Source: Planctomycetota bacterium (GTDB lineage: Bacteria; Planctomycetota; Phycisphaerae; Phycisphaerales; SM1A02). From it: DNA of 39,559 nucleotides. Location: positions 1,437-40,995 of the forward strand of contig QWPV01000013.1 in assembly GCA_003671055.1 (NCBI GenBank), in the 5' to 3' direction. A program made the translations under genes and the position numbers. Positions 9,864 to 21,396 of the stretch are shown here, piece after piece. Below the pieces are notes generated by a model. The model was not told the DNA's origin and did not search any database. It saw only the letters and a list, made by a program, of their open reading frames with translations. The first letter of the stretch is position 1. Each line of letters starts with the position of its first letter.

Positions 9864-10400
9864 GTGGCGCAGTCGCATGACGTTCGAGCGTTTCCGTACA
9901 AGATTGCAGTGCTCTGCTATCTCTACGATCCGCAGGGAAGGCTGTTGCTCCTCCATCGACGCAAGCCGCCGAACTCAGACAAGTACTCACCCATCGGCGG
10001 AAAGCTCGAAATCTCGGAGGGCGAATCACCGCACGATTGCGCGCGACGCGAAGTGTGGGAAGAGGCGGGCGTTCGACTTGAGCCGAACGAGATTCGGCTC
10101 CTCGGACTCGTGAGCGAAGCGGCGTTCGAGGGTGAAGAGCACTGGTTGATCTTTTTGTTTGAAGTGACGCGCGCGATTCGTCCTGAGGAGCTCGCCCATT
10201 CTGAGTTCGATGAAGGTCGATTGGAGTGGCACGCGATTGAAGATGTCGCGCGCTTGCCGATTCCAGAAACGGATCAGCGCATCCTGTGGCCGGCGGTGCA
10301 GAAACACAAGGATGGATTCTTCGCGCTGCACATCGATTGTCGTGTAACGCCGCACACCTCGCAGATGCACGAGTCATGGACCCATGTCAGTCGAGCTTGA
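9864..10400 (+). CDS. NUDIX hydrolase
   Basis: A 178-residue protein with a NUDIX box at about residues 47-72, GGKLEISEGESPHDCARREV followed by WEEAGV. The glycine-rich start carries two extra residues compared with the common GG-x-x-E-x-GE spacing, but REV-x-EE-x-GV is intact. These enzymes hydrolyse nucleoside diphosphates linked to another group; the substrate is not predictable. It starts at a GTG 2 nt after the dapA stop, indicating translational coupling, and overlaps the next gene by 17 nt. The tail after residue 130 (ADQ-free, HIDCRVTPH) shows no known motif. Confidence 0.85.
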   Translation: MAQSHDVRAFPYKIAVLCYLYDPQGRLLLLHRRKPPNSDKYSPIGGKLEISEGESPHDCARREVWEEAGVRLEPNEIRLLGLVSEAAFEGEEHWLIFLFEVTRAIRPEELAHSEFDEGRLEWHAIEDVARLPIPETDQRILWPAVQKHKDGFFALHIDCRVTPHTSQMHESWTHVSRA

Positions 10401-11508
10401 ATCTTCAGGACCGTCGAAGTACGAAATCTCGCGCGAGGTTTCGGACATCGCACGCACATGGGTCATCGATCCGAGGATCCCGGCCACGGTTCCTGGCTTT
10501 GATGCGCCGTTTTTTCAAGCGGGACTCGCTGGCTACTCCGATGGTGCGATGCGATTGATCGCGCGTCGACACGGATCACCATTCTGTGTGACGGAAGCAC
10601 TGCTCGATCGCACACTCATCAACGGTGGACGCGGGCGTCGCAAAGAGGATCCCGATTTACTCGCGACCGAATGCGGGATGGGTGACCTTGAAGACAACAT
10701 TGCCGCTGGACTCGATGACCACCCGATTGCGGGCCAGATCATGGGAACGCTTCCCGAAGAGATGGCGCGCGCGGCAGAGTTGATCGTGGGTATGAAGTAT
10801 GACGTGGTGGATGTGAACCTCGCATGCCCCGTAAAGAAGGTGAAGAAAAGCAATCGCGGCGGACATTTTCTCGCGCATCCAAACGACGCGATCGATGTGC
10901 TGCGAGCGGTGCGCGCGGCAGTTCCCGCGAACATTCCCTGCACCGTGAAGCTCCGACGAAGTTTCGACGACACGCCTGAGATGGAACGCGCGTTCGAAGT
11001 AATCTTTGACGCCGCGTATGACATGGGTTACGCGTGGGCAGTTGTCCACTGCAGAACCGTCGAACAAAAATACCTCGGTCCCGCAAAGTGGGAGTTCTTG
11101 CGCGACCTCGTCGCACGACGAAGTGATCGAGTGATCTTCGGCTCCGGCGACATCTGGACCGTGGATGACATTTTCAGGATGCACGCATTCACCGGCGTCC
11201 ATGGTGTCTCCGTCGCACGCGGATGTATCGGCAATCCGTGGATCTTCCGACAAGCCCGTCAACTCATGCGCGGCGAACCAGCGACCTTGCCAACACTCGC
11301 CGAGCAGCGCACCGCACTACTCGAGCACTTCGAACTCGCGCATCGTCTGCACGGCGAAATCGTCGCCGGCCGACGCATGCGAAAGTTCGGCATCAAGTTC
11401 TCGCAGCATCACCCCGACAGCGAAGCCGTCAAGTCCGCGTTCATCCGCTGTGAAACGACCGTGGAGTGGGAAGCAGTACTCCAGCGGCATTATGCGTGCA
11501 TATCTTGA
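10384..11508 (+). CDS. dus: tRNA-dihydrouridine synthase
   Basis: A 374-residue FMN-dependent TIM-barrel enzyme that reduces uridines in tRNA D-loops. Visible motifs are FFQAGLAGYSDGAMR (FMN-binding start of the barrel), PIAGQIMGTLPEEM, the active-site cysteine in VDVNLACPVKKVKK, VKLRRSFDD, VVHCRTVEQKY and VSVARGCIGNPWIFRQ. About 40 residues precede the barrel. The DusA/B/C subtype is not assigned. It overlaps the NUDIX gene by 17 nt. Its last four residues and the stop codon lie inside a 121-bp dispersed element, so the present C-terminus may have been created by that element. Confidence 0.9.
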   Translation: MSVELESSGPSKYEISREVSDIARTWVIDPRIPATVPGFDAPFFQAGLAGYSDGAMRLIARRHGSPFCVTEALLDRTLINGGRGRRKEDPDLLATECGMGDLEDNIAAGLDDHPIAGQIMGTLPEEMARAAELIVGMKYDVVDVNLACPVKKVKKSNRGGHFLAHPNDAIDVLRAVRAAVPANIPCTVKLRRSFDDTPEMERAFEVIFDAAYDMGYAWAVVHCRTVEQKYLGPAKWEFLRDLVARRSDRVIFGSGDIWTVDDIFRMHAFTGVHGVSVARGCIGNPWIFRQARQLMRGEPATLPTLAEQRTALLEHFELAHRLHGEIVAGRRMRKFGIKFSQHHPDSEAVKSAFIRCETTVEWEAVLQRHYACIS

Positions 11509-11614
11509 GCGTTCGCGACTGACCGCGCGTTGAGTCGCATCCGTTTCACCGCATGGATCGCGCGCGGTTTCGCTCACTCTGGTACGGCTCGGCGAGTGAA
11601 TCGCCTTCGCCTGA
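11494..11614 (+). repeat. 121-bp structured dispersed element, copy A
   Basis: This copy matches the reverse complement of 20337-20457 over 121 aligned positions with 15 differences and no gaps (about 88%). It can fold into TGAGCG/CGCTCA and ACCGCGCG/CGCGCGGT outer stems around a variable inner stem, followed by a hairpin GGCGA-GTGAA-TCGCC. In the other copy the last hairpin is GCGGA-GTGAA-TCCGC: two base pairs have flipped on both arms, which is compensatory change. The copy begins in the last codons of dus and runs on the same strand. No coding potential is convincing. Confidence 0.8.
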
Positions 11615-11639
11615 GGCGTAGTTGAGCGCTTCTGATGAT

Positions 11640-11665
11640 TGGACTTCCCCAGATTTGGTGGACAC
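11640..11665 (+). mobile_element. Possible solo IS3-type terminal inverted repeat
   Basis: The 26 nt from TGGACTTCCCCAG to GTGGACAC align without gaps to the terminal repeat of IS3 as I remember it, with 19 of 26 matches including CTT, CCCAG and GTGGACAC. No transposase or matching second end is present in the window, so at most this is a relic. Confidence 0.3.
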
Positions 11666-11701
11666 TGCTTACCGGCGAGTTTGATCTCGCCAGAAGCAGT
11701 G
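11663..11701. terminator. Hairpin between convergent dus and FG-GAP genes
   Basis: CACTGCTT pairs with AAGCAGTG (8 bp) and, inside it, GGCGAG pairs with CTCGCC (6 bp) around TTTGAT. TTTCT follows on the plus strand. It lies 4 nt past the stop of the minus-strand FG-GAP gene and about 155 nt past dus, so it probably ends transcription from one or both sides. Confidence 0.5.
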
Positions 11702-11705
11702 TTTC

Positions 11706-13298
11706 TCATGGGTCACTCGCGTTCCGAGCTTGCGGATCCGCGCGCCAGGCTTCGGTTGCGGTGTGTGCCGCGATGGCCGTCGAATCAAGTCCAAAAACGT
11801 GGACGCTGCCGCGCGGACGTCCGCTCTCCTCATCGTTGAAGCGACCCACGATTGCGAGGTTAGGTAGTAGCGCCGCCGAACTTCCGAGAAGGAACATCTC
11901 GCCAGCAGCTTGAGCGCGCAGTCGAGCTATTGGCGTGAATGCTGCATCTCTCTCGCGTCGCATGAATTGCCACGCAGCACCGCTCGACTGACCCGTGTCG
12001 CTTGCGCCAGGAGCACCCACGAGAAGATGACCTTTCGACAACGCGAGCGAGAGCCCGAAGAATGTGCTCGCGCCGGCATCAGGAGCAAATATCGATTGCG
12101 TCAACTCGACAGTCGCTGTGGAGAGTCGATACACGAACGCGGCTCCAATCGCAGACGACTCCTCGCGCAGCTCCGATGGCACGGTGTAACCAGGCGCGCC
12201 GATCACGAGCGTCTCTCCATCGATCGCGAGTGCACTTCCAAACGATGCGAACTGCGGACGTTGCGGTGGGCGTAGTGTGGTGTGGAGTTTCCACGCGCCC
12301 TCAGCGTTGCGATGAAACATCGTCACTTCGCCAACGCTCATCGCGGTTGGATGCGCTCCGCTCTCATCCGGAACGTCCGACCCAGGTGCCCCGATCGCGA
12401 TCCAATCGCCACTCACAGCGACCGCATTCCCAAACCACGCGCTTGATTCTGGCGTCTCTCGTTCGAGTGACGCCGTCACGTGCCATGCGCCGCTCTGCAC
12501 GCTGCGCGTGAAGACATAGACGCGTCCGGAGTCATAGAAATGCCGTGCGTTGGGCTCGCCATTCGCGTCTTCGCCAACAACAACGACGTCACTCCGCGGC
12601 GCGCCGACAACAATCGTGCTCTCGCTCGCTGCGAGTGCGTGTCCAAATGCTTCGTCAGGTTCTGGTCGAGGCGAGAAGAGCATCGCGCCGGCCTGCAGCG
12701 TTGAAGATTCAAGTCGAAAGAGACGAACGCAGCCCGCGTCTTGCAGCAACTCATCCGACGTGTCGCAGCCAATGATGACTTCCGGTTCGGCTGTGTCAGC
12801 AAAGCGAAGCGCTACCGCGATGCCGAAGCGGTCTCCGCCCGTGGGAGAGTCGGTATGCGCCACCTCGTGTAAGTGCGCGACCAACGGCGCACGATCTTCA
12901 GCGGAATACAAATGCACCGTTCCCGGAAGATTTCCGTCATCATGATCCATCGGCGCTCCAACGGCGAGCCAACGCGCCGACGCCGCTAAAGACGCACCGA
13001 ACCGAGGTTCATACGCGCGAAGCTCTGGCGACAGCACCACTTCATCGATGCCAGTGCGGGGCTCAATCCGAGCACTCCAAAGAGAGGCGATCCGCACGCC
13101 GTTGGGACGCGCGTGCGGATCGTAACTCCACGGTGACGCGGCGAACGTCACGCTTCCTGAAACGAGCGCGCCGAGTGTCATGCACGCCCATGCGCGCTTC
13201 GCGATTGCGCGAGGTCGAACGCGAACTCTTGAACAACCTCGTTTCGCCCACACGCTTCGCTCACTATGACACTGCTGACCCTGTTGACAATGCTGCAT
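11706..13298 (-). CDS. Secreted FG-GAP beta-propeller protein
   Basis: A 530-residue protein with seven FG-GAP/integrin-alpha-like repeats, each of the form FG-x-A/S-LA followed by VGAP and a VY-F strand: RFGASLAASARWLAVGAP, DRFGIAVAL, AFGHALAASESTIVVGAP, WFGNAVAVSGDWIAIGAP, SFGSALAIDGETLVIGAP, FFGLSLALSKGHLLVGAP and LLGSSAALLPNLAIVGR. Seven blades fit one closed propeller. A hydrophobic export segment MTLGALVSGSVTFA follows a basic stretch of about 39 residues. The ATG at 13298 has AAAGGGG 6 nt upstream; an ATG at 13181 would give a shorter signal peptide. Likely extracellular, function unknown; no enzymatic domain seen. Confidence 0.8.
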   Translation of the reverse strand: MQHCQQGQQCHSERSVWAKRGCSRVRVRPRAIAKRAWACMTLGALVSGSVTFAASPWSYDPHARPNGVRIASLWSARIEPRTGIDEVVLSPELRAYEPRFGASLAASARWLAVGAPMDHDDGNLPGTVHLYSAEDRAPLVAHLHEVAHTDSPTGGDRFGIAVALRFADTAEPEVIIGCDTSDELLQDAGCVRLFRLESSTLQAGAMLFSPRPEPDEAFGHALAASESTIVVGAPRSDVVVVGEDANGEPNARHFYDSGRVYVFTRSVQSGAWHVTASLERETPESSAWFGNAVAVSGDWIAIGAPGSDVPDESGAHPTAMSVGEVTMFHRNAEGAWKLHTTLRPPQRPQFASFGSALAIDGETLVIGAPGYTVPSELREESSAIGAAFVYRLSTATVELTQSIFAPDAGASTFFGLSLALSKGHLLVGAPGASDTGQSSGAAWQFMRRERDAAFTPIARLRAQAAGEMFLLGSSAALLPNLAIVGRFNDEESGRPRGSVHVFGLDSTAIAAHTATEAWRADPQARNASDP

Positions 13299-13502
13299 CT
13301 GAATCCCCTTTGAGTCTTATGACTCCGTTCCACTCCAACCGCCCGTCGCTTGTCGAGTGCGCAGCCAATCCGCGCACGCTTCAACTTCATCCTTGTACTA
13401 CGACTTCAGAGTGGTTTCGAAAAACACTGCCTTTTTTCCCGACACATTCCTGAGAAATTGTTGCGTCGGAGTTTGAGCCTCCGTCCGCGGCAGATGCGTC
13501 TG

Positions 13503-13508
13503 TACACT
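13503..13508 (+). promoter_or_regulatory. -10-like hexamer TACACT, 7 nt before ATG
   Basis: Same hexamer and same 7-nt spacing to the ATG as at 1993. There is no Shine-Dalgarno sequence, which points to leaderless transcription of the hydrolase gene. It lies in a 217-nt divergent gap with the FG-GAP gene in which I see nothing else. Confidence 0.4.
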
Positions 13509-13515
13509 CTGCCGC

Positions 13516-14244
13516 ATGTCGATAGAGCTTCGAAGAGAGACTGTGCAGTACCGAGATGGCGCGAACGAACTTGAAGGGTTCGTCGTGACACCGCAGAGCA
13601 ATGCGCTGCGTCCAGTTGTGCTGATCTGTCATGCATGGCGCGGCACGGAGGAGTTCGATCGTGAACGCGCAGAGTGGATCGCAAGTCTCGGCTACATCGG
13701 CTTCGCAATCGACGTGTACGGCAAGGGTCGTCGCGGAACTGACAATTCGTCATGCGCAGCGTTGATGAATCCATTCATCGAAGATCGCGCGTTCCTCCGT
13801 CGCCGACTCCTCGCAAGCATCGCGTACGCATCGACGATGCAGGGCGCGGATCCAACTCGCATCTGTGCGATCGGATTCTGTTTTGGCGGTCTCTGTGCGC
13901 TCGACCTCGCACGAGCGAATGCTCCAGGCTTCGTCGGCGCGATCGCGTACCACGGATTGTTCACGCCTCCAAATCTCGGTGTGCAATCACCCATCCAGTC
14001 GAAGGTCATCGCGTACCACGGCTGGGATGATCCGATGGCAACGCCCGATGCAGTGCTCGCGTTCGGTACCGAGATGACGGCCGCGCGCGCAGATTGGCAA
14101 CTCCACGCATTCGGCGGAACGCTGCACGCATTCACAAATCCACAAGCGAACGATCCGAGTTTCGGCGTGCAATATCGCGCGATCGCTGCGCAGCGCGCCT
14201 ACCAAGGATCTGAAGCGTTCTTCCGTGAAGTGTTCGGCGAATAG
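13516..14244 (+). CDS. Dienelactone hydrolase-family protein
   Basis: A 242-residue alpha/beta hydrolase. The nucleophile elbow GFCFGG puts the catalytic cysteine at about residue 122. The acid is an aspartate in YHGWDDPM (171/172) and the histidine is in GTLHAFT (204), giving the Cys-Asp-His triad of dienelactone hydrolases. LICHAWRGTEEFDRERAEW and GFAIDVYGKGRRG are also typical. The true substrate is probably not a dienelactone, as the family is used widely for esters and lactones. No signal peptide, so cytoplasmic. The SNF2 gene follows after 15 nt. Confidence 0.9.
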   Translation: MSIELRRETVQYRDGANELEGFVVTPQSNALRPVVLICHAWRGTEEFDRERAEWIASLGYIGFAIDVYGKGRRGTDNSSCAALMNPFIEDRAFLRRRLLASIAYASTMQGADPTRICAIGFCFGGLCALDLARANAPGFVGAIAYHGLFTPPNLGVQSPIQSKVIAYHGWDDPMATPDAVLAFGTEMTAARADWQLHAFGGTLHAFTNPQANDPSFGVQYRAIAAQRAYQGSEAFFREVFGE

Positions 14245-14259
14245 GAATTGTTGATCTCG

Positions 14260-16257
14260 ATGCCTGAGCCCAATCCACAGTACGCACGAACGGATGAGCA
14301 GGAACTTCTTCCTGCGACAAGTGCACTGCATTGGGATCTCCATGTCGCGGCGCATGAATGGGACCTTGCGGAACCGATTGTCATGGAGAGCGCGGAGGAC
14401 TTTCGTTCCACCGCATCTTGGCGAGAACGCGTGCAACCGTACGCACACCAAGTGCAGAACCTCATCACGTTCTGTCGCAGACTGCCGGTGACTTTGCTTG
14501 CTGATGATGTCGGATTGGGCAAGACGATTTCCGCAGGACTCATTCTCTCGGAACTCATCGCGCGAAAGCGAGTGACGCGCGCGCTGGTGCTTGCGCCGAA
14601 GTTGCTGCTTCCGCAGTGGGATGAGGAGATGACGACGAAGTTTGGGTTGCGCACCATCGCGGGATCCGCAAGCGAGTTTGATGATGCACTCGAGAGCGAT
14701 GCGCAGGTTGTGGTGACGACATATGAGACGGCGCGCAATCGGTTCGAAGATGGCGCGAATCCAAATGCGATCGCGGCGCTGGCGTCGTTTGACATGCTCA
14801 TTCTCGATGAAGCACATCGATTGCGAAACCTCTACCCCGATGGCGATGTGCGATTCGCGCAAGTCGTGCGTCGCCTTCTCGAAGAGCGACGATTTCGTTT
14901 CGTGTTGATGCTGACTGCAACGCCGATGCAGAACCGACTTTGGGATCTCTACAGCCTCATCGATTGCATGACCGTCGCGCGTGGCCACAAGAATCCGTTC
15001 GGCACACCTGCGCAGTTCGAGCGCACCTACTGCGTCGATCACAGCGGCCGTTCGATTCGACCAGGCACGGAGAAGCGTTTCCGCGAAATTCTCGCGCAGT
15101 ATGTGGCGCGCACGCGACGAGATGATGCGAAGCTCGTCTTCCCTGAACGCACTGTTCGACTTGAAAAGGCAGATCTCACGCCGTTTGAACGCGATGTCTA
15201 CGCGAAGACGGAGCGGTTGATCGGATCGAAGAAGATTCCCAAACTCGCGGCGATCTCGGTCTTGCAGGCGATGTGTAGTTCGGTGGACGCGTTGCACGAG
15301 CAACTCGGAAACATGACCGCGAAGAATCCAGCGTGTGGTGCGCTGCGGACGGAGATTGAGCGCAGCTTGCCAACACAAAGCGCAGGAGGTGCTGTTCGAT
15401 TTCCACTTGGTGGCAAGATCGAGGCGCTTCGCCAACTCATCAAGAAACTCAGTGCAGCGCGAAGTGATTGGCGCGTAGTCGTGTTCACGGGTCGTCGCGT
15501 CACACAAGCGCGGATCGTCGAGGAACTGCTCGCCGATGGCTACACGGTCGGCACGATTCGCGGTGGGGATCCGAAAGGAAATCAGGAATCACTCGAGGGC
15601 TTTCGCGAAAATCCGCCAACGGTGCGCGTGATCGTCTCCACCGATGCGGGCGCTGAGGGCGTGAACTTACAGTCGGCGAATGTGCTTGTGAACATCGATC
15701 TTCCGTGGAATCCGATGAAGGTCGAGCAGCGCATCGGACGCATTCAGCGATTGGGAAGCAAGCACGGTGCGGTCGAGATTCTCAACATCGTCGCGAAGGG
15801 AACTTTCGACGAGCACCTCGTCGGCAGTCTCATGGTGAAGTTGCAAACGATCGCGCAGACTGTTGGTGACATTGAAGCAGTGCTGGAGTCGACGAATCTC
15901 GATGACGAAGATTCGTTTGAGACGTCCATCTTCAACCTCATCATGCGATCGCTGCTCGGTCAGGATGCGGAAGCCGCGCGCACACAGATGGAGTCGAGTT
16001 GGTCAGAAGCAAAGTCAACACTCGCGCAGCAAGAGCGATCCATTGACGAGACGCTCGGCAGACTCGACGCGCTGCATTCAGTCGGCGCACGGTTGCCGGA
16101 TCTCGCGCGTTCGCCGCCCACCATGACTGCGCGTGCGTTCGTGGAAGGCGCGCTCCGTGCGGAGCGGTGCAAGGTTGTCGCAGTAGAAGGAGACGCTGAT
16201 CGGTTCGATTACGTCACTTCTGCGGGCGCTCTCATTCGCGCGACCTGGAGACGCTGA
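14260..16257 (+). pseudogene. SNF2/RapA-like ATPase, N-terminal part (frameshifted)
   Basis: About 665 residues carrying a complete superfamily 2 helicase-type motor: Walker A LLADDVGLGKTISAGLIL (residues 79-96), DEAH box LILDEAHRLRN, motif III LMLTATPMQNRLWDLYSL, and the C-terminal lobe with VVVFTGRRVTQARIVEELL, STDAGAEGVNLQSANVLVN and QRIGRIQRLGSKHGAVEIL. Such ATPases remodel protein-DNA or RNA polymerase complexes. The frame ends early (ATWRR) in the second copy of a 58-bp tandem duplication; without it, translation would continue into the ORF ending at 17857, giving about 1,180 residues. The motor half could still be made. I prefer the ATG at 14260 over the TTG at 14248. Confidence 0.85.
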
Positions 16258-16304
16258 TCGGTTCGATTACGTCACTTCTGCAGGCGCTCTCATTCGCGCG
16301 ACCT
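16189..16304 (+). repeat. 58-bp direct tandem duplication causing a frameshift
   Basis: Copies 16189-16246 and 16247-16304 abut exactly and differ at one base (GCGGGCGCT versus GCAGGCGCT). Because 58 is not a multiple of three, the second copy moves the reading frame and meets TGA at 16255. Removing one copy joins GALIRAT to YSDAPAPGVRSF in one open frame across the whole SNF2 gene. Confidence 0.95.
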
Positions 16305-16327
16305 ACAGCGATGCACCAGCGCCCGGC

Positions 16328-17857
16328 GTGCGTTCCTTCGCTCCGATGCATGCGGAGTTCGAACGATTGTGCGAGCGATGGATTGCACGTTCGCACGCAC
16401 GCCTTCATATCGCGCATGCGTGCAGTGAGACGGATGCGCGCACCGCGGTGGAAACATGGGCTCGACAACTTCCACTCGCAGCAGAGCTTGTTCTCGAAAC
16501 GATCGACGCTCCTCAATCCAACGATGCGTTCCATGGAACGGCGGTCGTGCGCTGGCGTGGTTCGAATCGACACGATGCGTATGAGTCTGTGGTCTGCGCA
16601 AAAGTTGGCGCGGGTGAACGTGTGGGCGACCATATCGCGCTGACAGATGCGGCGCCGATTCCTGCGCGCGAAATTCCGACTGCCGTCGTGCGTGCCGTGT
16701 CAGAGGCAATCGCGCAGGACAAGAGCATCGCTGAGTTTCTTCGCTTCTACACCGAGCGTGCGGTCGAGGAAGCAGCGCGTGCAGACAAAGCCCGAGCGCG
16801 AGTTGTTCGTGAAGAGTACGAACCAGTGGTCGAGCAGGAAATCGTCGCGCTCGATGGAATGCTCTTCAAGCAGTTCGACGTGCGCGCGGGGTTTCGCGCG
16901 CGGGGAAGTCTCTTGCAGGCGACATTTCAAGTTGCGTCGGCGGATGAGCGTGGAGCGTGCGTGCATTCGGCATCTGGTGTTGCGATGGAGCACTGCGTGA
17001 TTTCAGGCGCGTGCGTGCCGAGCGAGTGGCTCTCGGCGTCGATCGTGAGTGGACTTCGTGCACTGACACATCTCTTCAAGCGCTGCGAAGTCGTCGGCGG
17101 ATGCATTCTCGCGTCCGAAGGCGAAGTGAGCGCCGCGAGCGGCAAGTTCGTGTGCTCGCGTGATTGTGCAGCGAGTGCGGTGAGTGGATTGCGTGCGCAT
17201 CGCAAGGAGTTTGTTAAAGACCACGCGACACGCGAGCTTCTCTTGCCGACGGAATTCGAAGTGAGCGACTTCAGCACGCAGCGCTATCGACGCGGAACAC
17301 TGCGCGCGAGTGTTGTGGATTCGACGAAGCGTGGCGGCAGCGACGAACTCGTAGCGTGCGAAGTGAGTGGCATTCCATTGTTTTTAAGCGAGGGCGCGCG
17401 CTGCGCGGTGACGAACAATTTTGTCGATCGTCGAATACTGCTCCATGAAGAGCGCGATCATCGGTTGTGTCTCGCGTCGTTGATCGCGAAATGTCCGTGG
17501 ACGGCTCGCGCGCTTCTGAAAACTGAACTTCGACCATGCGCGCTGCTCGGTCTCTCGTTTGACCCCAATGCGCTTGATCAGCAGGGAGTACTGCGCGCGA
17601 TCAGTGCGCTTCGCGATGGTCGTGTGGGGCAAGCACGTGTAGGCGCGGAAGCATTCTTTGCTGCACGCGATCCAGTGCGATTCAAGAACATCAAACAGTG
17701 CACGATGGTGGACGCGCCAGCGACGGAAACGTTTCTCATCCAGCTCTCTACGGCTGGATTCCTCGGGTTCCGGCCTCGCCTGCACTACGCGCTCGTCTCG
17801 CAGCGAGCATCTGGGGAGCTCACACTCCTTGCGCTTTCCGAGCCGCAGAAGGCGTGA
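16328..17857 (+). pseudogene. SNF2-like protein, C-terminal part with CxVSG repeats
   Basis: This is the displaced C-terminal third of the SNF2 gene; the frame is open from within the duplication and the GTG at 16328 is only the first available start. After a helical charged part (about residues 125-165 of this ORF, EEAARADKARARVVREEYE) come many short units of the form C-x-V/I-S/T-G followed by a hydrophobic strand: HCVISGACV, ASIVSGLRAL, CEVVGGCIL, VSAASGKFVC, ASAVSGLRAH, CEVSGIPLF, CAVTNNFVD. Similar repeats follow the motor in planctomycete SNF2 proteins as I recall. The end (about 470-509) is a compact beta-rich piece. Alone it has no catalytic domain. Confidence 0.75.
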
Positions 17858-17937
17858 TTTCACGGCGGATGAAGCGCGTCCTCGACGTGTGTGACGTTTA
17901 TTCCATTTGAGATCGCACGAATCCCGAGTCACGCGAG

Positions 17938-17965
17938 TTGCGGCTCGCCGCGGACGGGCTATGTT
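17938..17965 (+). promoter_or_regulatory. Candidate promoter TTGCGG-16-TATGTT
   Basis: TTGCGG and TATGTT are separated by 16 nt, and the -10 box ends 6 nt before the ATG at 17972. This is the best -35/-10 pair among the start-proximal boxes and would give a leaderless mRNA for the secreted protein-metalloprotease pair. Confidence 0.45.
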
Positions 17966-17971
17966 CAATAG

Positions 17972-18790
17972 ATGCGAATGACGAATTTGTTTCGGGGAAC
18001 TCTACGCCGTGCGCGCTTTCTTACGAGCGCGTGTTTGCTCGCGCTGTGGAGTACTTCGCCAGCGATTGCCACGAGTGTGAAGCCGATGTCAATGCGCGAG
18101 ATCGCGGATCACTCCGCGCAGGTGTGTTGGGCAACAGTCGAGTCCACGACATCGCGTTGGAGTAAAGGACATCGTGCGATTGAAACAGTGATTCATCTTC
18201 GTGACGTGCAGTACCTGAAGGGCAGTGGGGAACGCGAATTCGATTGGGTTGTGCCCGGCGGTTCGATAGACGGTTTCACGATGCGACTTGCTGGCGCGCC
18301 TGTGTTTGCGGTGGGCGAGCGATGGATGTTGTGTCTTCTACCGGAGTGGAAGACGCATCCGTGCGCGGGTATTTGGCAAGGAGCGTTTCGCGCGGAGCAA
18401 GGTCCAACGGAAACAGTCGTGCGGAGTGCGGATGGAATGGTGAGTGGACTGCATCCAGATTCTTTCGTGCGCTGTGCGATGAGCAGCACGAAACACACTT
18501 GTTTCGAAGATGCGTGCAAGGGTGCGCATGTTCCCGTTGTTTCACACACGACGCCCGAGCCCTCGATCACAGTGGAAGAGTGGAACGCGTTATTGCAACC
18601 GATTCTTGACGCGAGCGCATCGCATACACAGCCGAAGGGCAGCGTCGTCGGCACGCGCATCATCACAACGCAACGCGCGGTTCCATTTCAGAATGCCTCA
18701 CACGAACCGAGTCATCGTCCCGCCGCGCGAGCGAAGGACAACGCATTGCGTCCAAAGGTTCGACTGATCGAAGTTGGAGGTTCGCGATGA
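17972..18790 (+). CDS. Secreted protein coupled to the metalloprotease
   Basis: A 272-residue protein not matched to a named family. It has a signal peptide with arginines then FLTSACLLALWSTSPAIA, cleavage near residue 33. The next part, AQVCWATVESTTSRW, IETVIHLRDVQYLKGSG, FDWVVPGGSIDG and VFAVGERWMLCLLP, is a beta-rich pattern I recall in secreted proteins encoded beside matrixin-like proteases, but that link is from memory. Two cysteines (about 165 and 172) could form a disulfide. The C-terminal 60 residues look disordered. Its stop overlaps the protease start (ATGA), so both are made together; a companion or inhibitor role is a guess. Confidence 0.7.
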   Translation: MRMTNLFRGTLRRARFLTSACLLALWSTSPAIATSVKPMSMREIADHSAQVCWATVESTTSRWSKGHRAIETVIHLRDVQYLKGSGEREFDWVVPGGSIDGFTMRLAGAPVFAVGERWMLCLLPEWKTHPCAGIWQGAFRAEQGPTETVVRSADGMVSGLHPDSFVRCAMSSTKHTCFEDACKGAHVPVVSHTTPEPSITVEEWNALLQPILDASASHTQPKGSVVGTRIITTQRAVPFQNASHEPSHRPAARAKDNALRPKVRLIEVGGSR

Positions 18791-20322
18791 ATGTTTCGCG
18801 ACCTTCAATGACCGCGCGAATCGCCGCGTTTTTCGGCTTACTCACGCTGTGCGCTCTCGCCGGTGGTTGGAACGCGTGGGCGTACAAGGGTCAAACAGTT
18901 GTGTGGCCGAACGCGCGCTGCACGCGTTACCTGATGCCGAGTTCGTTTCCGACTGGCGCGATTCAAACGCAGCAATTTGTGGGCGCGATGGTCGATTGGT
19001 CTTCCATCGACGCGTGCGCGTTTCGCTTCCAATACGCCGTGCTTCCGCAGGATTATCCCGTCGATCATTTCGATGGCTACAGCGACACGCTGGCAGTCGC
19101 GCCCGAGGAGCTTGATCCTGGTGTCCTTGCTGTGACCTACGCGGTGAATAGTGGCGCGAGTTGGTACGACATGGATATGGAGTTCAACAATGAGCCACTT
19201 GTGGTTGGTTGGAACTTTGTCGCGCAGCCAACCTGTATCGATGAAGCGATGCCGGGGCTCAATGGATTCTGCTTCAGCCTTGTCGCATTGCATGAATGCG
19301 GCCATTCCATTGGGCTCGCGCACGAACCCACTGGATCAGAAACGCCTGGCGCGCCGTGGATTGTCTGCACGATGAATCCGAACTATGCGCATGGCGGTTC
19401 GAACGGCGTCGCGCGTGTGTTCGAAACACACACCGATGATCGTGTCGGTGCACGAACTTTGTATCCCGGGACATCTGCAGGCATCGTCGATCTTGCCACG
19501 ATGAATTTCTCGTGGAGCCCGTATGTGGGAACGCCGTTCACTGTGCATTCGTCGCCGAGTTCGCTCTTACCAGGCGCGGAGTTCACGGTGCGCAGCGCGA
19601 TTGAGAATCTCGGTTCGATTGATGTGTACGGCGTGACGCAAAAGATGTGGCTTTCCGCCGACGAATTGATTGATCCAGGTGATGTGCTGCTCGCAGATTT
19701 ACTCTGGGATCTTCCTGGCGGCGAGTTGATCGATTTCGATCTTGTCACCAATCTTCCCTACGACATTGCATCACGCGATTGGCATGTACTCACGGTGCTC
19801 GATCCGCAACAAGTGATCCCTGAGCAGTTCGAAGACAACAACGACGCCGCGTATTGTGTGCCCGCGCACGTTTCCCAGTTCGCGCCGGAAATCATCGCGC
19901 CCTTGGGTCAGTACTTCGGCACAGCAGGTGAATTGTGGACGAGCCCAACGCCGCAGTTGACGCGCCCCATCAACATGGGTCCGACCGTGTGGTCGCTCAT
20001 CGCTTCGCCACCCGCGGGCATCGTGATTCATCCGCAGACTGGCGTGATCTCATGGGCGAATCCCATCGCGAACCAGTTCCAATACATGCTCTTTGTTCGC
20101 GCAACGAACGCTGCAGGGACCGACACCGAAATTCTCTACCTCGGCATCGCAGACTCCGCATGCATCGCCGACGTGAACGAAGACGGCGTCGTCAGCGCGC
20201 AAGACATCTCTTTTATCCTCGCCTATTGGGGAAGCACTTCAACAATCGCGGACCTCGACAACGACGGTCTCGTCGGCGCAGGCGATCTCGCAATCGTCCT
20301 CAACGCGTGGGGCGGCTGCTGA
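18787..20322 (+). CDS. Secreted matrixin-like zinc metalloprotease with dockerin-like tail
   Basis: A 511-residue exported protein. The signal segment is IAAFFGLLTLCALAGGWNAWA. The catalytic motif HECGHSIGLAH gives zinc ligands H169, H173 and H179 and the base E170; CTMNPNY supplies the Met-turn of metzincins. Residues about 245-365 resemble a CARDB adhesion domain (SSLLPGAEFTVRSAIENLG, EDNNDAAY). Residues 368-455 resemble a putative Ig domain (GPTVWSL, PQTGVISW). The C-terminus has two calcium-loop repeats, DVNEDGVVSAQD and DLDNDGLVGAGD, each ending in a -WG motif, dockerin-like. It degrades proteins outside the cytoplasm; the tail may anchor or sort it. Confidence 0.85.
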   Translation: MNVSRPSMTARIAAFFGLLTLCALAGGWNAWAYKGQTVVWPNARCTRYLMPSSFPTGAIQTQQFVGAMVDWSSIDACAFRFQYAVLPQDYPVDHFDGYSDTLAVAPEELDPGVLAVTYAVNSGASWYDMDMEFNNEPLVVGWNFVAQPTCIDEAMPGLNGFCFSLVALHECGHSIGLAHEPTGSETPGAPWIVCTMNPNYAHGGSNGVARVFETHTDDRVGARTLYPGTSAGIVDLATMNFSWSPYVGTPFTVHSSPSSLLPGAEFTVRSAIENLGSIDVYGVTQKMWLSADELIDPGDVLLADLLWDLPGGELIDFDLVTNLPYDIASRDWHVLTVLDPQQVIPEQFEDNNDAAYCVPAHVSQFAPEIIAPLGQYFGTAGELWTSPTPQLTRPINMGPTVWSLIASPPAGIVIHPQTGVISWANPIANQFQYMLFVRATNAAGTDTEILYLGIADSACIADVNEDGVVSAQDISFILAYWGSTSTIADLDNDGLVGAGDLAIVLNAWGGC

Positions 20323-20336
20323 AAGGATGCGCGCGG

Positions 20337-20457
20337 TCAGGCGAAGCGGATTCACTCCGCGAGCCGTACCAGAGTGAGCGAAACCGCGCGCGCACATCGC
20401 GATGAAACGAGTGTGACGCAACGCGCGGTCAGTCGCGAACGCTCAAGACATGCACGC
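20337..20457 (-). repeat. 121-bp structured dispersed element, copy B
   Basis: Inverted copy of 11494-11614. Read on the minus strand it keeps the outer ACCGCGCG/CGCGCGGT stem and has GCGGA-GTGAA-TCCGC where copy A has GGCGA-GTGAA-TCGCC. The inner variable stem also differs on both arms (CACA/TGTG here). It starts 15 nt past the metalloprotease stop and lies downstream of the minus-strand secreted gene, just beyond that gene's terminator. Confidence 0.8.
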
Positions 20458-20473
20458 GAACGCTACAACATGC

Positions 20474-20510
20474 AAAACAGCCCATTCGCAAACATAAGCG
20501 AATGGGCTGC
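20474..20510 (-). terminator. Intrinsic terminator of the small secreted gene
   Basis: CAGCCCATTCGC pairs perfectly with GCGAATGGGCTG (12 bp) around an 8-nt loop. On the minus strand it is followed at once by TTTT and then GCATGTT. It lies about 90 nt past the stop at 20600. Confidence 0.8.
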
Positions 20511-20599: not shown

Positions 20600-21229
20600 T
20601 CAGTAGATACGGTCAGTGTCGAGACTGAACCGGAGGTAGTTGTTCGGAACGAATGGCACGGAGAACCTCAGGCGGAGCTTCATGTAGGTGTCGTTCATCG
20701 CAACGCCACCGATGGTGACGCGGTTGCTGTACTCCGGTCCAACCATCCACGCACCTGCACCGCCGAGGTACGCGATGTCAGCGCCTGTGAGGCTTCCCGC
20801 AGTGCCGGGGTTTGGCAGCGTGCGATCGAAGCAGTACTTCTTGGCGCTGGTCACGCTAAGACCGATGAGGCGGACTTCGGTGAGGTCGAATCCGGCCTGA
20901 CCCGAGTGTGTAAGTGTGAAGACTGGAGTTGCGCCTGCGTGATCGCAAGTCAACCGGAATCCAGGACCGGTCAGTGTTGTGGATGTTCCCATCGCTGCGG
21001 GGAAGAACCCGATGAACGCTGGCGCGGCGGCGTAACTCACTTCCACACGACTTCCAACGATATTGGCGACAGCCGTCACCTGCGCGGTGCCCTGGACGGC
21101 GTATGAAACGCCTGGGCTCGCGGCGACGACGCCGATACCTGCCGCGAGCACGGTTCCGACGACGAGAAGATTCGCAGTTGCAGTTGCGGCGACGGTAAGC
21201 GACGAACGAAGATGACGATTGAGCTTCAT
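20600..21229 (-). CDS. Small secreted protein of unknown function
   Basis: A 209-residue protein starting MKLNRHLRSSLTVAATATAN, with a basic start and a long hydrophobic Ala/Val/Gly export segment, cleavage perhaps near residue 37. The mature part is small-residue and beta-rich (TAQVTAVANIVGSRVEVSY, PGFRLTCDHAGATPVFTL) with two cysteines that could pair, and ends LRFSLDTDRIY. No domain, sorting tail or anchor is recognised. AGGAG 6 nt before the ATG fixes the start, although the frame is open to 21391. A strong terminator follows, so this is a single-gene unit, perhaps well expressed. Neighbouring exported proteins suggest an envelope or surface role. Confidence 0.7.
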   Translation of the reverse strand: MKLNRHLRSSLTVAATATANLLVVGTVLAAGIGVVAASPGVSYAVQGTAQVTAVANIVGSRVEVSYAAAPAFIGFFPAAMGTSTTLTGPGFRLTCDHAGATPVFTLTHSGQAGFDLTEVRLIGLSVTSAKKYCFDRTLPNPGTAGSLTGADIAYLGGAGAWMVGPEYSNRVTIGGVAMNDTYMKLRLRFSVPFVPNNYLRFSLDTDRIY

Positions 21230-21390
21230 GGCGGACTCCTCTATGGAAAGATGGTTTCTGACCTCTGAGCCGTGCGGCAGACGTTGCCTCACGCGCTCCT
21301 GTTGATTCCTTCCGCGCTTGCGCGCACGACCTTGCAGGAGTGGGCGAATATTTCTCAATCTTCCGGTGAAGAGCCGCGAATCCTGCGGCA

Positions 21391-21396
21391 TACTTC
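21391..21396 (+). promoter_or_regulatory. Weak -10-like TACTTC, 6 nt before ATG
   Basis: TACTTC ends 6 nt before the ATG of the DUF1549/DUF1553 gene and no ribosome binding site is seen. It fits the position of the other start-proximal boxes but is the weakest match. Confidence 0.2.

Follow-up and report, generated by a model that had tools for sequence, protein, structure and literature searches.

A probable REP-like mobile repeat with two hairpins, settled at gene 3' ends in a freshwater planctomycete genome

In the window, the whole stretch of 39,559 nucleotides analysed here, two copies of a structured sequence lie at 11494-11614 (+) and 20337-20457 (-), raising the question of whether the sequence is a mobile repeat or an RNA module that serves its host. 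Alignment of the two copies gave 88% identity over 121 positions, and this alignment, together with a BLAST search of the genome, confirmed the pair that the original prediction had described. Both copies lie in convergent gaps, as it had also stated. Its further claim, that each copy lies 3' to a gene and shares the strand of that gene, is true at both places but trivial, because any element in a convergent gap shares its strand with one of its neighbors. The elements, their parts and the neighboring genes are as follows.

10384-11508, +: dus (dihydrouridine synthase), with its stop codon TGA (11506-11508) inside element copy 1
11494-11614, +: type A element, copy 1; model core 11505-11614, leader GCGTGCATATC at 11494-11504
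11515-11573, +: head hairpin of copy 1; GCGA (11515-11518) with TCGC (11570-11573)
11521-11529 and 11561-11569, +: inner arms of this head hairpin, GACCGCGCG with CGCGCGGTT
11530-11560, +: loop of copy 1, 31 nt, near-constant in length, variable in sequence and unstructured on average
11586-11611, +: tail hairpin of copy 1; outer GGC/GCC, inner GGCGA/TCGCC, loop GTGAA
11615-11640, +: truncated type B element as read from the sequence; linker GGCGTAG, then the B 5' end TTGAGCGCTTCTGATGATT
11706-13298, -: gene for an FG-GAP repeat protein, convergent neighbor of copy 1
18787-20322, +: gene for a protein with a dockerin domain and a weak matrixin match, neighbor of copy 2
20337-20457, -: type A element, copy 2; model core 20337-20446
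20346-20360, -: inner tail hairpin of copy 2; GCGGA/TCCGC, loop GTGAA
20391-20421, -: loop of copy 2, 31 nt
20600-21391, -: gene without a Pfam match, convergent neighbor of copy 2

The A-GGCGTAG-B order of the copy 1 region was seen again on contig C24 of the host genome (L007). Beside each element, inspection of the letters also reveals a terminator-like hairpin followed by a short T run, at 11663-11701 (+) and 20479-20508 (-). Elsewhere in the window, a 58-bp tandem duplication (16189-16304, 98% identical) spans the end of the ORF at 14248-16257.

A BLAST search of the whole host genome (G000; 2.85 Mb, 100 contigs) with the element as the query returned 53 matches, indicating that the element is a dispersed family; these matches far exceed chance, with a best E value of 1e-37 after the self-match. 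Two models, R1 for type A and R2 for type B, gave 59 and 65 matches in G000, respectively, which merged into 80 distinct elements at 57 sites; within the window, only the two type A copies scored well. An element measures about 85-120 nt and consists of a 5' head hairpin, which exists in two interchangeable kinds, A and B, and a 3' tail hairpin, with both window copies being type A. Nearly all members start with TTnAGCG (n = G, T or A), continued in type A by.TCGCGACT, and the 3' end is CGCCTGA or CGGCTGA. The ends TTGAGCG...CGCCTGA are only imperfectly inverted. The type A head comprises GCGA-CT-GACCGCGCG, 31 variable nt and CGCGCGGTT-TCGC, and the type B head is a continuous long hairpin, GAGCGC...TGATGATTTCTGCCCCAAGCGGCAAAATCATCA...GCGCT. 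The tail common to both is built of TACGGCTCG, an inner hairpin and TTCGCCTGA, the inner hairpin occurring as GGCGA-GTGAA-TCGCC, GCGGA-GTGAA-TCCGC, CCGGC-AGA-GCCGG and other versions. Tandem and mixed A/B arrangements occur and tandem arrays are common; single dispersed copies predominate. Assembly breaks often fall within or beside elements, at contig ends of G000 (C35, C50), G002, G003, G063 and G064, and copy numbers from these draft genomes are therefore likely underestimates.

Covariation was analyzed in 33 type A elements from three species (G000, G002 and G003). In this set, 94.8% of the cells were paired and double changes occurred in 9 of 18 pairs, with 86 doubly changed cells compared to 30.6 ± 5.7 in shuffled sets and 0-18 when partners were slid. 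Pair A18-U64 is changed to G-C in 16 sequences, pair C20-G62 to G-C or G-U in 16, and tail pair C90-G102 to G-C or U-A in 16; within G000 alone, five copies have C-G in place of the outer tail pair G83-C108. Thus, covariation in the head stem and the tail hairpin is genuine. Two parts of the predicted structure were borne out, namely the alternation of the tail hairpin between GGCGA-GTGAA-TCGCC and GCGGA-GTGAA-TCCGC and the conserved outer stem ACCGCGCG/CGCGCGGT. The third, a second variable stem (CATCC/GGAT versus CACA/TGTG), failed: in 17 genomic copies neither version paired better than shuffled letters, and the two versions sit in different registers of the 31-nt loop. This inner stem was hence rejected, as the copies pair no better than chance and the loops, folded within the arms, do no better than shuffled loops (not clearly better, z -1.8 in G000 and +1.2 in G003). 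A genome-wide set devoid of covariation beyond the pairs first noted had been named beforehand as what would speak against selection for structure; the set contained covariation in the outer stem and tail and lacked it in the inner stem. When folded alone, the window copies were no better than their own shuffles (z 0.1 and -0.8), so that the evidence for structure is covariation, not stability.

The genomic context was examined over 191 kb around G000 elements, using a home-made gene caller on partial contigs and gaps near the elements as controls. The 34 element gaps with both neighbors known were convergent in 20 cases, codirectional in 13 and divergent in one, compared to 5, 28 and 20, respectively, for 53 control gaps (convergent 20/34 versus 5/53, Fisher p = 1e-6). 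At about 11 sites, the frame of the upstream gene runs into the element for no more than ~18 nt before it is closed by a TGA, TAG or TAA that the element carries. At dus, the element stands at the stop codon in both G000 (type A) and G001 (type B), and the TGA of TTGAGCG is used; in the sister species G002 and G003, dus has no element and a stop codon of its own. At 3 of 20 loci in sister genomes, the flanking genes were common to G000 element sites, and the element was in the opposite orientation in all three (3/3); the insertions at these common loci therefore look independent. No shared target-site duplication was seen when flanks were inspected by eye. Elements were also found just 3' of tRNA genes in G000, at L003 (C44), L089 (C46), L075 (C36) and L072 (C6), and at L075 the unit of tRNA-Glu and element is tandemly duplicated.

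The strong preference for the 3' ends of genes and tRNAs, and arms that are conserved and covary in every copy although the loops have diverged, would suit a host 3' RNA element. Its hairpins, once transcribed, would terminate or protect mRNAs in the gaps of convergent genes, and selection for this function would retain each copy. We consider this explanation unlikely. Orientation in the codirectional gaps is balanced (7 same, 6 opposite), presence is patchy from species to species, with dus of G002 and G003 devoid of the element, and the terminator consensus of a GC-rich hairpin followed by a T run was found in neither window copy, while a separate terminator-like hairpin adjoins each. An Rfam scan of the window also gave no match at the gathering score. 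Taken together, these data disfavor both the 3' RNA element and the small RNA that had been suggested.

We instead propose, with a probability of roughly two in three, that the element is a mobile, non-autonomous palindromic repeat that behaves like a REP or REPIN, with an exchangeable head and a tail hairpin, which settles at gene 3' ends, mainly in convergent gaps. The earlier suggestion of a MITE-like or REP-like element selected for structure is supported by the roughly 80 copies, the covariation of stem and tail, the empty orthologous sites and the independent insertions. Such an element would spread within a genome and land at gene 3' ends, chiefly between convergent genes. A trans-acting recombinase or nuclease may recognize the folded single strand by its stems, by a tail loop of GTGAA or AGA and by the constant spacing within its head, and may then copy or move the folded element. 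Insertions at gene ends alone would survive, where little harm would be done and a stop codon supplied, with dus as the worked case: insertion into the last codons would be tolerated because the 5' end (TTGAGCG, TTTAGCG or TTAAGCG) brings its own stop codon.

The loop of the type A head does not fit easily with a mobile repeat. Loop length is 31 nt in 20 of 22 distinct loops of G000 (30 nt in two) and 30 nt in 25/25 of G003, and mean loop identity is 48-50% (48% in G000) against 96-98% for the G000 arms. In three cases, tandem copies have a common loop with one difference, and the loop is therefore not re-made at each duplication. Frozen arms around a drifting loop of near-constant length are a puzzle for the mobile-repeat reading and count against it, because a common loop would be expected if the copies had recently arisen from a single master, and decayed arms if they were old and dead. 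The failure to find a transposase flanked by the element at the loci inspected, a target-site duplication or a precise empty site also counts against this reading. To account for the contrast between arms and loop, one must invoke prolonged replication under selection for the ends, arms homogenized by gene conversion, or selection of every copy by the host. Selection might act on each copy separately: a protein dedicated to the element would bind the arms and tail and co-evolve with them in each species, and the loop, fixed in length at 30-31 nt, would be deliberately left free or diversified. We judge this distinctly improbable. If true, such per-copy selection would define a new kind of structured element, moved by a non-HUH enzyme or serving the host as a gene-end module. 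The contrast between arms and loop makes possible a direct test of selection for spread versus selection by the host.

Across 61 genomes, R1 matched only within the window's genus, with 59 matches in G000, 35 in G003, 9 in G002 and one in G001. Among 400 genomes of the order, the exact motif TTGAGCGNTCGCGACT was present in 16, belonging to four genera, and reached many copies only in genera g1 and g52, unevenly between g52 species; pattern matches in the 400 genomes ranged from 0 to 52 per species, with almost none for a control pattern. The carriers are scattered patchily over two genera within a single family of freshwater planctomycetes, and among the matches listed they include the freshwater planctomycete MAGs SXUI, SXUJ, JAIYCA, JAIXVI, JAJTGK and JAJTGL and the Erken lake MAG CAIWCL. 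Those beyond the window's genus keep the 5' lead and the GAGTGAATC tail and have a different hairpin as the head. Besides Planctomycetes and the Erken MAG, the named genomes of other phyla among the matches listed gave isolated 16-nt motif matches only. Apparent elements are present on contigs of the betaproteobacterial MAG 'Limnohabitans sp. MAG13' (JASGCF; L141, L142 and L166), which was rejected as a host owing to probable misbinning, as these contigs encode proteins up to 94% identical to those of planctomycete G063. The phage and plasmid collections searched contained no match to the element, and 25 single matches to the 5' motif in viral contigs, none with a convincing element behind it, were judged to be chance.

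Inspection of the G000 Y1 genes, six loci outside the genus and ten neighbor proteins revealed no transposase with the element at its flanks. This bears on whether the element is a true RAYT-mobilized REPIN, moved by the Y1/HUH transposases of these genomes. In REPINs, too, a variable spacer lies between inverted ends that are conserved (PMC3116915), and Y1_Tnp genes are present, four in G000 and some in five of the six genomes outside the genus that bear the element. However, the element flanks 0/4 of the G000 genes, which are flanked by a different repeat (GGGACAGGCACAATT/AATGTGCCTGTCC), and 0/6 of the loci inspected outside the genus; Y1_Tnp is absent from G001, G002 and G003, although G003 has 35 copies of the element, and the element has no GTAG tag. 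We therefore regard this route as very doubtful. The G000 genes themselves (L031-L034, on C68, C79, C25 and C29) encode four divergent RAYT-like Y1 transposases of 386-411 aa, and the repeats flanking them are other small ones, e.g. GGGACAGGCACAATT / AATGTGCCTGTCC or GACAGGCAAGCC. Alternatively, another recombinase might use the element for landing or exchange, in the manner of attC or of the end of an IS, and the head would be a module that can be replaced. In favor of this, heads A, B and other g52 heads replace one another between a 5' lead and a tail that stay the same, and tandem arrays are common. Yet most copies are single and dispersed, and none of the ten proteins checked near G000 elements is a recombinase or transposase, making such a site highly improbable.

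Among described families, REP elements and REPINs come closest to this element. Like REP elements of the GTAG and CGTC superfamilies, it forms dozens of short intergenic palindromes per genome with variable stems and clusters, has a patchy species range and prefers the space between genes (PMC3733652); with about 80 mainly intergenic elements, it is a short extragenic palindrome in many copies. Different from these REPs, which are 20-40 bp with one hairpin, it spans about 85-120 nt with two, has a type A loop fixed at 30-31 nt, bears no GTAG/CGTC tag and does not lie beside a RAYT gene (PMC3733652); no terminal unpaired GTAG or CGTC was found at a conserved place in the aligned A or B copies. 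It resembles Pseudomonas fluorescens REPINs in its conserved ends around an inner spacer, its near-identical tandem copies and its within-genome populations (PMC3116915). A REPIN, however, is two inverted copies of one REP, whereas here the head arms are inverted repeats around the variable 31-nt loop and the tail is a different hairpin, the spacer is nearly constant in length and no RAYT is linked (PMC3116915). As with bacterial MITEs, the element is small, non-autonomous, dispersed and intergenic, but no clear terminal inverted repeats, target duplications or parent insertion sequence were found for it (PMC2229807). We do not file the element as a REP or REPIN, because the tag and the RAYT link, which are the defining features, were looked for and not found, yet it works like one. 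REP-like families that lack a tag, and CGTC repeats that have no transposase dedicated to them, are also noted in the survey of GTAG/CGTC REPs (PMC3733652). The literature searched held no untagged REP-like family from this planctomycete group, and a genome paper on freshwater Planctomycetes does not mention palindromes, hairpins or repetitive elements (PMC6461901). The element looks like a new REP-like jumping repeat, not a regulatory RNA.

A standing question concerns REP-like repeats that have no transposase linked to them. In the present case, several sister species, one of them with many copies, carry the element without any Y1 transposase, which points to another mobilizer, or to spread without one.
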